Shown: positions 33,420 to 35,128 of the stretch, piece by piece | Numbering within the stretch: position 1 is the stretch's first letter | Layout of the letters: each line of letters opens with the position of its first letter | Assembly: GCF_014692875.1 (NCBI RefSeq) | Contig: NZ_CP061171.1 | Location: 1,922,001-1,986,000 of the forward strand | Source: Pedobacter riviphilus | Lineage (GTDB): Bacteria > Bacteroidota > Bacteroidia > Sphingobacteriales > Sphingobacteriaceae | Length of the DNA: 64,000 nt | Reading direction: 5' to 3' | The notes under the pieces: model-generated | What the model was told of the DNA's origin: nothing | Database searches by the model: none | Seen by the model: only the letters and a program-made list of their open reading frames with translations | Made by a program: the position numbers and the translations under genes

Positions 33420-34751
33420 TTAGGCTTGTAAACTCTCTGTTGGAACTGAAGCATTAATTGTTGCAAATGCCTGTTCGAAATCGGCTTTAATATCATCAAT
33501 ATGCTCAATGCCTACTGATACCCTTAAAGCATTCGGTTTTACACCTGCAGCTAATTGTTCCGTTTCGCTTAATTGTTGGTGTGTTGTGGCCGAAGGTTGA
33601 ATGATCAGCGTTTTTGCATCACCCACATTGGCCAGGTGAGATACCAGTTTTAAGCTATCAATTACCTGTGTTGCATTTTCTTTGCTTCCGGCTAACTCGA
33701 AAGATAAAACTGCGCCAAAACCATTGCTTAAATATTTTTTAGCCAGGTTATTGTATTTACTGCTGGCTAAGCCAGGGTACTGAACTTCTTTAACTAATGG
33801 ATGGTTTTCTAACCAGGTGGCCAATTCTAATGCATTATCTACATGACGTTGTACGCGGAGCGATAATGTTTCTAATCCTTGTAATAAAAGAAAAGAATTG
33901 AAAGGCGATAGGGCAGGCCCAAGATCTCTTAATCCCTCTACACGGGCACGGATGATAAACTGGATGTTTCCAAATGGTCCACCGATACCAAAAACATCAC
34001 TAAAAACCAAACCATGATAGCCTTCAGAAGGCTCAGAGAACTGAGGAAATTTGCCATTGCCCCAGTTGTAATTTCCACCGTCAACTATTACTCCGCCAAT
34101 GCTTGTTCCATGGCCACCGATCCATTTCGTTGCAGATTCTACAACAATATTGGCACCATGTTCCAATGGTTTAAACAAATAACCTCCTGCACCAAAAGTA
34201 TTGTCGACTATTAAAGGGAGATCGTATTTTTTTGCAATGGCGGCAATTTTTTCGAAATCTGGAACGCTAAACGCCGGATTTCCGATGGTTTCGAGATAAA
34301 TGGCTTTAGTTTTATCGGTAATTTTAGCTTCAAATTCTTCAGGTACATCTGGATTTGCAAAATCGACATGTATACCCAAACGTTTAAAAGCTACTTTAAA
34401 TTGGTTGTAAGTTCCACCGTAAATGTGAGATGAAGAAACAATGCTATCACCAGCTTCCAATATGTTATTTAACGCTATAAATTGAGCAGCTTGCCCCGAT
34501 GCAACAGCCAAAGCAGCTACACCACCTTCTAAGGCTGCTATACGTTTTTCGAAAACATCGTTGGTAGGATTCATAATCCTGGTGTAGATATTGCCAAATT
34601 CTTTTAAGGCAAATAAATTTGCGCCATGCTCAGCGTTTTTAAAACCATAAGAAGTGGTTTGGTAAATGGGAACAGCCCTTGAACCTGTTGTTGGATCTAT
34701 TTCCTGGCCAGCGTGTAATTGTAAAGTTTCAAATTTATATGATGTTGACAT
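33420..34751 (-). CDS. metY: O-acetylhomoserine sulfhydrylase
   Basis: 443 residues from the ATG at 34751 ([17 protein letters not shown]). [12 protein letters not shown] carries the PLP lysine; [10 protein letters not shown] and [23 protein letters not shown] are MetY signatures, and the length fits MetY rather than cystathionine gamma-synthase. It makes homocysteine from O-acetylhomoserine and sulfide. It is the first large gene behind the SAM-I riboswitch and a Cys-rich leader ORF. Confidence 0.95.
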
Positions 34752-34826
34752 AGTATCTATTTTTTTAATTGTTGAGTGGGTAAATGCATTAAGATTTTGG
34801 GCAATCGTAAAATGTAACAAGGCGTA

Positions 34827-34842
34827 TCCCGATTTTTCGGGA
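34827..34842. promoter_or_regulatory. leader hairpin between leader peptide and metY
   Basis: TCCCGA (34827-34832) pairs with TCGGGA (34837-34842) around TTTT. No U run follows on the minus strand, so it is not a plain terminator; it may take part in attenuation or mRNA processing between the leader peptide and metY. Confidence 0.35.
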
Positions 34843-34882
34843 CCTTCCAGTTTGAAAGAAACAAAAAAGGAAGATTTTTAAA

Positions 34883-35011
34883 TTACAGTATGCAACAGCA
34901 CATACAAGCAATCGCGCGCATATCACAACAAGTAATAGAAATAGAAGCTCGTTCTAACTTCTTAAGGTTTGATTTGGGTTCGCCCAGCGATTGAAGATTT
35001 AATGTTTTCAT
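34883..35011 (-). CDS. Cys-rich 42-residue leader peptide
   Basis: ATG at 35011, TAA at 34885-34883. The peptide starts MKTLNLQSLGEPK and ends TCCDMRAIACMCCCIL, so six of its last 15 residues are Cys. Its start codon lies 8 nt after the 3' strand of riboswitch P1, and its stop is 131 bp before metY. The position and Cys run suggest a leader peptide sensing cysteine or cysteinyl-tRNA by ribosome stalling, in series with the SAM riboswitch; a secreted or metal-binding peptide is less likely (no signal sequence). The ORF is too short to be found by length alone. Confidence 0.6.
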   Translation of the reverse strand: MKTLNLQSLGEPKSNLKKLERASISITCCDMRAIACMCCCIL

Positions 35012-35019
35012 CAGTTCTA

Positions 35020-35128
35020 ATTTATATCTCCAAATAACACCATGTTATCCGGTCAGGAATTGGCACCTTCTCTTTCTGAGGGTTGCCAGTGGGTCATCGA
35101 GCCAGTCTCTCGCCACTTCTTTATAAAT
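35020..35128 (-). ncRNA. SAM-I (S-box) riboswitch
   Basis: Minus-strand RNA with the SAM-I core: AAGTGGCGAGAGACTGGC, TGACCCACTGGCAACC, and AAGGTGCCAATTCCTG, followed by GGAGATATAAAT. P1 is formed by ATTTATA (35128-35122) and TATAAAT (35026-35020). It binds S-adenosylmethionine and lowers expression when SAM is high. P1 ends 8 nt before the leader-peptide ATG, so control of leader translation is likely; metY-metX-hom lies downstream. Confidence 0.95.

Follow-up and report, generated by a model that had tools for sequence, protein, structure and literature searches.

The metY-metX-hom operon of Pedobacter riviphilus raises the question of what a short, cysteine-rich open reading frame (ORF) is doing directly behind a SAM-I riboswitch: is it a chance feature of the sequence, a leader peptide that acts beside the riboswitch, or a second sensor under the riboswitch's control? 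A sequence-only reading of the window (the whole stretch of 64,000 nt analyzed here) had placed a SAM-I element, a Cys-rich ORF of 42 residues and metY-metX-hom in this order, which is borne out by Rfam, NCBIfam and Pfam matches and by the ORF itself (Table 1). On the minus strand, the 111-nt aptamer, one of six SAM-I aptamers in the whole genome, is followed by 7 nt, the 42-codon ORF (ending in CMCCCIL and a stop), two adjacent helices, metY, the metX-like gene and hom. The start codon thus lies just behind P1 as had been read, albeit at 7 rather than 8 nt, and the hairpin claimed between the ORF and metY is present in sequence and folding as helices A and B. Further features lie nearby: a 338-aa ORF with a signal-peptide-like start (35340–36356, plus strand; no Pfam match) diverges from the riboswitch operon, and a Flavo-1 RNA (RF01705, 61 bits; 36392–36485, minus strand) sits between this divergent gene and a cystathionine synthase/lyase-like gene.

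Table 1. Features of the metY leader and operon (positions in the window).
Feature	Position	Strand	Evidence or remark
SAM-I riboswitch aptamer	35019..35129	minus	RF00162, 74.7 bits (gathering 44.4), full model 1-108
P1 3′ strand, A/U-rich	35019..35026	minus	7 nt 5′ of leader ATG; putative ribosome-loading region
Leader ORF, ATG start, 42 codons	34883..35011	minus	translation MKTLNLQSLGEPKSNLKKLERASISITCCDMRAIACMCCCIL
Candidate sensor codons Cys-Met-Cys-Cys-Cys	34892..34906	minus	two codons ahead of stop
Hairpin H1 (GTATG with CATAC)	34888..34905	minus	built from Cys/Met codons
Helix A: CTTCC (34873-34869) with GGAAG (34848-34844)	34844..34873	minus	
Helix B: TCCCG (34842-34838) with CGGGA (34831-34827)	34827..34842	minus	immediately 3′ of helix A; not followed by a T-run
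metY, O-acetylhomoserine/O-acetylserine sulfhydrylase	33420..34751	minus	TIGR01326, 679 bits (cut-off 495); PF01053
metX-like homoserine acetyltransferase	32333..33391	minus	TIGR01392, 345 bits, best NCBIfam match, below cut-off 500; PF00561
hom, homoserine dehydrogenase	30958..32250	minus	NF004976, 322 bits (cut-off 205); PF00742; start codon approximate

A MetY search of a one-genome-per-species collection returned 578 relatives, the best 80 of which were used; they came from Pedobacter (the nearest relatives among these 80), Mucilaginibacter, Daejeonella, Sphingobacterium, Hymenobacter, Chryseolinea and metagenome genomes of several labels. A SAM-I match above the gathering cut-off was found upstream of metY in 76 of the 80 loci, in one case (L149) about 700 nt from the gene; the four loci without it (L113, L124, L127, L128) were excluded when the first ATG behind the aptamer was examined. 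In 74 of the 76, this ATG opened an ORF of 25–63 codons with a Cys tail, defined as at least two Cys within the last eight residues, and the gap between aptamer and ATG was 1–13 nt, mostly 6–9 nt. The two exceptions, L130 and L141, carry ORFs at 13 and 10 nt with the tails MSMPGC and SIRMR. Likewise, SAM-I preceded metY or metX at 35 loci of a set of same-genus genomes (this locus included, and with species shared with the best-80 set); 34 of the 35 had the Cys tail, the single failure being L036 with the tail CMCHGMYQS. From genus to genus, the reading frame, the start position and the Cys tail are kept and the remainder of the peptide changes, to the point that the bodies look unrelated by eye. 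The conservation of the Cys run across metY loci, which had been named as a check on the leader-peptide reading, thus holds. A pairing of a SAM sensor with a Cys-run leader, present in several bacterial families, probably lets the cell weigh two sulfur signals. Being short, and kept between genera in its tail alone (as judged by eye), the ORF is easily missed.

We asked how often such tails arise by chance in the 450 nt upstream of metY, using 80 sequences (79 of the best 80 loci plus the window; L128, lacking upstream sequence, was dropped). Two or more Cys among the final eight codons were seen in 75/80 real sequences, 9/80 reverse complements and 207/3200 dinucleotide shuffles. With at least three tail Cys, the counts were 66/80, 0/80 and 19/3200, respectively, and 0/228 for neighboring windows; with at least four, they were 56/80, 0/80 and 0/3200. 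A chance ORF behind an ordinary SAM-I riboswitch could draw on the commonness of short ORFs, on the shuffles passing the loose two-Cys test and on the modest in-frame constraint described below, but the four-Cys shuffles and the position of the first ATG, kept in 74 of 76 loci, effectively rule it out.

The composition of the tails points the same way. Taking the last 14 residues of each of the 74 leaders, 392 of 1036 positions are Cys and 111 are Met; among the 1813 body positions the figures are 25 and 15, respectively. From body to tail, this is a rise of about 27-fold for Cys and about 13-fold for Met. Part of the Cys rise is a selection effect, since leaders were picked for tail Cys; they were not picked for Met, which occurs within the last 14 residues in 70 of the 74. 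Both Cys codons are used: the final 12 codons, counted over 65 leaders, include 195 TGT and 141 TGC. Together with bodies that look unrelated, Cys/Met tails with Cys spelled either way are the signature of a ribosome-read leader peptide. Synonymous bias, a second check proposed with the leader-peptide reading, is weak: pN/pS was 0.67 in frame vs. 1.05 and 0.77 in the other frames, calculated for 42-codon Pedobacter leaders only, with one duplicate of 20 removed. In these Pedobacter leaders, constraint on the body is loose, and the tail hardly varies as nucleotides; it is the comparison across genera that carries the decisive evidence.

Because this tail is conserved at the nucleotide level and lies within a hairpin, the Pedobacter Cys codons could partly reflect RNA structure. 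It is improbable, by contrast, that tails are conserved mainly as RNA, the TGY repeats serving as the arm of a structural switch or as a protein site and translation being incidental. Such a reading would account for the near-invariant Pedobacter tail nucleotides that form H1, and for a downstream GCAACA able to pair with the Cys codons in all six members of a chosen group of Cytophagales-type loci; L142, a seventh locus of this type left out of that group, lacks GCAACA. What it would not explain is that the first ATG shares its frame with the run at 74 of 76 loci, across ORFs of 25–63 codons, that TGT and TGC are both used, and that Met codons are enriched as well. L142 also carries two SAM-I aptamers about 1.5 kb apart (L142:552-663 and L142:2104-2220).

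Is the ORF a companion of SAM-I aptamers in general? A Cys-tailed ORF (two Cys) followed the aptamer in 0/21 metH loci, 0/6 desulfurase-like loci and 0/10 unclassified loci, where the labels metH, desulfurase and TonB rest on words in the N-terminal sequence alone, some of the ten unclassified loci resemble metH with another start, and one truncated locus (L021) was excluded from the comparison by downstream gene. With these other genes as controls, the ORF at the aptamer edge belongs to metY/metX leaders and not to SAM-I generally, as far as the loci examined go. In the six desulfurase-like loci (L004, L022, L024, L026, L027, L173), SAM-I lies 49–83 nt before a gene with a cysteine-desulfurase-like N-terminal word, and there is no Cys leader ORF. 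Loci with TonB-receptor-like genes are different again: 10 of 20 hold a Cys-tailed ORF, never closer than 15 nt to the aptamer. Eight of the TonB loci, from same-genus genomes (L001, L007, L009, L010, L011, L013, L015, L016), share a conserved short ORF with the tail FRMRxxC, which ends about 190 nt behind the aptamer. Its length is 24 aa except in L015, where it forms the end of a 47-aa ORF. Other TonB loci show tails such as CCC, HCCSI and CCMH. These ORFs are a second type of Cys/Met leader, differently arranged.

To gauge the spread beyond close relatives, we turned to a class-wide sample of 198 genomes, 38 of which had a close MetY; 37 further loci were fetched and 35 scanned with Rfam. 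SAM-I was detected in 14 of the 35 scanned metY loci, with the first ATG at –1 to 15 nt in 13 of the 14 and a Cys tail in 11, spanning eight family labels (f1, f2, f15, f31, f39, f40, f49, f54); L185, L186 and L206 failed the Cys-tail test. Besides its SAM-I aptamer, L206 bears a borderline SAM-II match (L206:175-277, minus strand; 44.8 bits against a cut-off of 44). Two same-genus loci outside the Rfam scan, L176 and L177, show the ORF too, and any Cys-tailed ORF is absent from 14 of the 37 class-wide metY-like loci, several of which are only 49–57% identical to MetY.

Seven class-wide loci (L187, L190, L192, L194, L198, L203, L205) have a Cys/Met-rich short ORF before metY with no Rfam match at E 0.05 or better. 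They were chosen by eye, omitting L208, whose 58-codon ORF passed the Cys test, as doubtful, and L189 for a truncated, sub-threshold SAM-I match (31.5 bits) upstream. For five of the seven ORFs, over 270 nt separate the stop from metY, and one ORF has just 10 codons, which makes their link to metY less certain. The idea that Met codons take the place of the riboswitch in these leaders was not upheld, as their higher Met content (2.6 vs. 1.5 in the last 14 residues) was not significant (p = 0.098).

The place of the start codon brings P1 into play. Taking P1 as the first and last 8 nt of the SAM-I match, its mean GC content was 12% in the 76 metY loci vs. 31% in the 21 metH loci (Mann–Whitney p about 1e-11, for sequences that are not independent), and in ten Hymenobacter loci with a mean GC content of 60% it was still 17.5%. 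Given the usual gap of 7 nt, the 3′ strand of P1 occupies about positions –8 to –15 of the ORF. A-rich positions upstream of the start guide translation initiation in Bacteroidota. The 20 nt before the leader ATG are A-rich (A at –3 in 66%, –6 in 74% and –11 in 70% of 74 starts; peaks at –3, –6 and –11/–12), and a Shine–Dalgarno-like motif was found before none of the 74 starts. From this overlap we infer that SAM-bound P1 would bury the ribosome-loading region of the leader. Further upstream, TAnnTTTG, which we take to be the Bacteroidota promoter word, occurs at most 90 nt before the aptamer in 63 of 76 metY loci vs. 7 of 151 control windows; an exact TAnnTTTG is absent upstream of the window's own aptamer.

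Downstream of the ORF, 26 Pedobacter loci hand-chosen from the best 80 (the Pedobacter-named L083, L086, L115, L124 and L125 being omitted) were aligned with the window, and 94.8% of cells in these 27 sequences pair in a model of three helices, H1, A and B. In H1, 91.7% of cells are paired; three of its five pairs are invariant, two vary on one side only and none varies on both. All five pairs of helix A are invariant in the 27 sequences, which makes a covariation test impossible, and its 5′ arm lies 5–13 nt after the leader stop in 26/26 chosen Pedobacter loci. Helix B has both-side changes in four of five pairs (33 cells vs. 0–3 in six slid controls). The structure test gave a mixed outcome: paired cells, both-side-changed cells and the covariation score were matched by 0 of 500 shuffles, whereas the counts for both-side-changed pairs (4) and for types of pair (11) did not rise above shuffles, being reached in 489 and 473 of 500, respectively. 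Helix B thus covaries by three of five measures. The Pedobacter-named loci L083, L086 and L115 lack the CTTCC/GGAAG pair. Mucilaginibacter has a different helix at the same place (both sides changed in one of six pairs), so that the downstream helices differ among Pedobacter, Mucilaginibacter and Cytophagales-type loci; common to the chosen loci is a helix that holds the Cys codons or starts at most 13 nt from the leader stop.

Two smaller repeats were seen within the Pedobacter ORF. Near the start of the ORF at 35011–34883, over codons 4–11, most of AAATCTTCAATCGC is retained among the 42-codon leaders. It partially repeats the helix A arm AAATCTTCC and is accompanied by a small inverted repeat, TCGC-NNN-GCG. 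This stretch may offer GGAAGG an alternative partner.

We folded the window leader with a ribosome masked onto it, using this one sequence and an assumed footprint. A ribosome on codons 36–39 removed H1 and left helix A in place (p about 0.93), while one at codon 42 abolished helix A (p at most 0.15); the stalled and untranslated states of this genome thus share the status of helix A. No terminator-like site was found in window positions 34700–35400. Among the 76 metY loci, four have a terminator-like hairpin, all doubtful: three of these hairpins fall within the ORF, and the stem of the fourth has just 5 pairs. For metH, the count is 7 of 21 loci. Given this near-absence of terminator-like hairpins with a U-run, we reject a classical terminator–antiterminator platform. 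The stretch from leader stop to metY is C-rich and G-poor, with a median best 78-nt C/G ratio of 2.0–2.5 in four groups, higher than in the metY coding region (1.05–1.24). Such skew would fit Rho, though perhaps ordinary leaders just as well, and so counts for little.

Taken together, metY-metX-hom is probably controlled by a composite, nested attenuator, a reading built from sequence comparison. It starts from an arrangement seen in the sequences themselves, in which the aptamer ends 1–13 nt before the ATG of the short ORF. When SAM is bound, P1 would form and bury its A/U-rich 3′ strand along with the loading region, and the leader would therefore go untranslated; at low SAM it would be translated. 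We consider this gating of leader translation by P1 somewhat more likely than not. The ORF itself is very likely a leader peptide that senses the charging of Cys and Met tRNAs: at the Cys/Met codons beside the stop, ribosomes would be held up whenever charging of Cys-tRNA or Met-tRNA runs low. Whether the ribosome is absent, parked on these codons or at the stop would then decide which helices form (H1, A and B in Pedobacter), and the helix state would set expression of metY-metX-hom, probably via Rho-dependent termination, mRNA stability or metY translation. That ribosome position acts on expression through structure, and by a route other than an intrinsic terminator, seems the better supposition, on a par with the gating step.

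The sequence-only reading had supposed two sensors in series, one for SAM and one for Cys. Comparison across loci strongly supports the two sensors; the second is a Cys-and-Met leader, and the arrangement looks nested rather than merely serial. An independent tandem, in which SAM-I and the leader act separately on one mRNA (e.g. the riboswitch on mRNA fate and the leader on metY) and P1 has no control of leader translation, appears unlikely. The modules can exist apart, since Cys/Met-rich ORFs precede metY without a SAM-I match in the seven loci above and SAM-I occurs without the ORF elsewhere, and the Cys/Met-tailed ORF of TonB loci starts at least 84 nt behind the aptamer. A tandem would, however, need neither the spacing of 1–13 nt kept in 74 of 76 loci nor a P1 that stays A/U-rich even in GC-rich loci.

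Within the nested attenuator, the sign of regulation is a closer call. We somewhat favor the classical sign, with metY highest when SAM is low and the ribosome is held on the tail; the presence of Met codons beside the Cys codons lends it mild support. The opposite sign, under which Cys shortage would lower metY and sulfide would go to cysteine first, is the less probable one, though better placed than the independent tandem; it had been proposed in the sequence-only reading on the grounds that MetY competes for sulfide. It fits the masked folding, where helix A is intact with a ribosome on the Cys codons, just as when the leader is untranslated, and removed with a ribosome at the stop. Yet the tail Met codons would then cut methionine synthesis under Met shortage, and the assigned family, TIGR01326, is described as aminocarboxypropyltransferase/cysteine synthase.

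Chances are even for a broader claim, namely that these loci represent a widespread class of nested riboswitch-attenuators, in which the riboswitch would control translation of a Cys/Met leader and not the gene, the P1 3′ strand would be the loading site, SAM and tRNA charging would be joined in a logic gate, and the leader would be older or more widespread than the SAM-I gate. If so, these leaders would be natural RNA gates with two inputs, the riboswitch acting on another sensor rather than on a gene, and sulfur-amino-acid sensing would be predicted where Rfam shows only a SAM riboswitch.

Among the papers listed in full-text searches, which covered few subscription journals, no title or opening of an abstract described a SAM-I riboswitch with a Cys leader behind it. 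Taken alone, the aptamer is a typical SAM-I (S-box; RF00162); what sets the locus apart from the usual SAM-I arrangement is a leader ORF at the place where a terminator or a structural gene would otherwise begin. Closest in the peptide are the leaderless polycysteine short ORFs of mycobacteria (Canestrari 2020, via PMC13236596 and PMC9094748), along with leader peptides with a Cys run that were predicted ahead of cys operons in Actinobacteria (PMC1262725). According to the passages of these papers that deal with them, both place a Cys-run short ORF before sulfur genes, near the stop in PMC1262725, and the mycobacterial ORFs likewise lack obvious terminators. The metY leaders differ from the ORFs described there in standing directly behind a SAM-I aptamer, in having Met in their tails as well, in coming from named hosts that belong to the Bacteroidota and in preceding metY. 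Unlike the mycobacterial ORFs, the metY ORF is probably not leaderless, as its location 7 nt behind a 111-nt aptamer suggests.

Other systems share single elements. The uORFC-8-2 motif upstream of cysS in Rhodobacterales similarly keeps the tandem Cys codons of a uORF inside a stem, but its U-run end fits an intrinsic terminator, and its description in the relevant section of PMC8632094 mentions no riboswitch. The tandem attenuators of Salmonella mgtCBR, as outlined in part of PMC3641672, have no such riboswitch–leader pair and no Cys run. For a flavobacterium, PMC9723704 reports hints that leader peptides attenuate amino-acid operons from an upstream position, and PMC9373788, from what its excerpts convey, is also among the nearest literature. 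The B12 riboswitches of Mycobacterium tuberculosis metE and ppe2 likewise combine a riboswitch and a translated uORF in one leader; the account of them in PMC11260477 describes, in the portion concerned, no amino-acid-sensing run, and calls the effect of riboswitch-associated uORFs on expression not yet addressed. Against those two loci, the metY leaders present an architecture found in many species, and with it a large natural set for asking how riboswitch-associated uORFs work.
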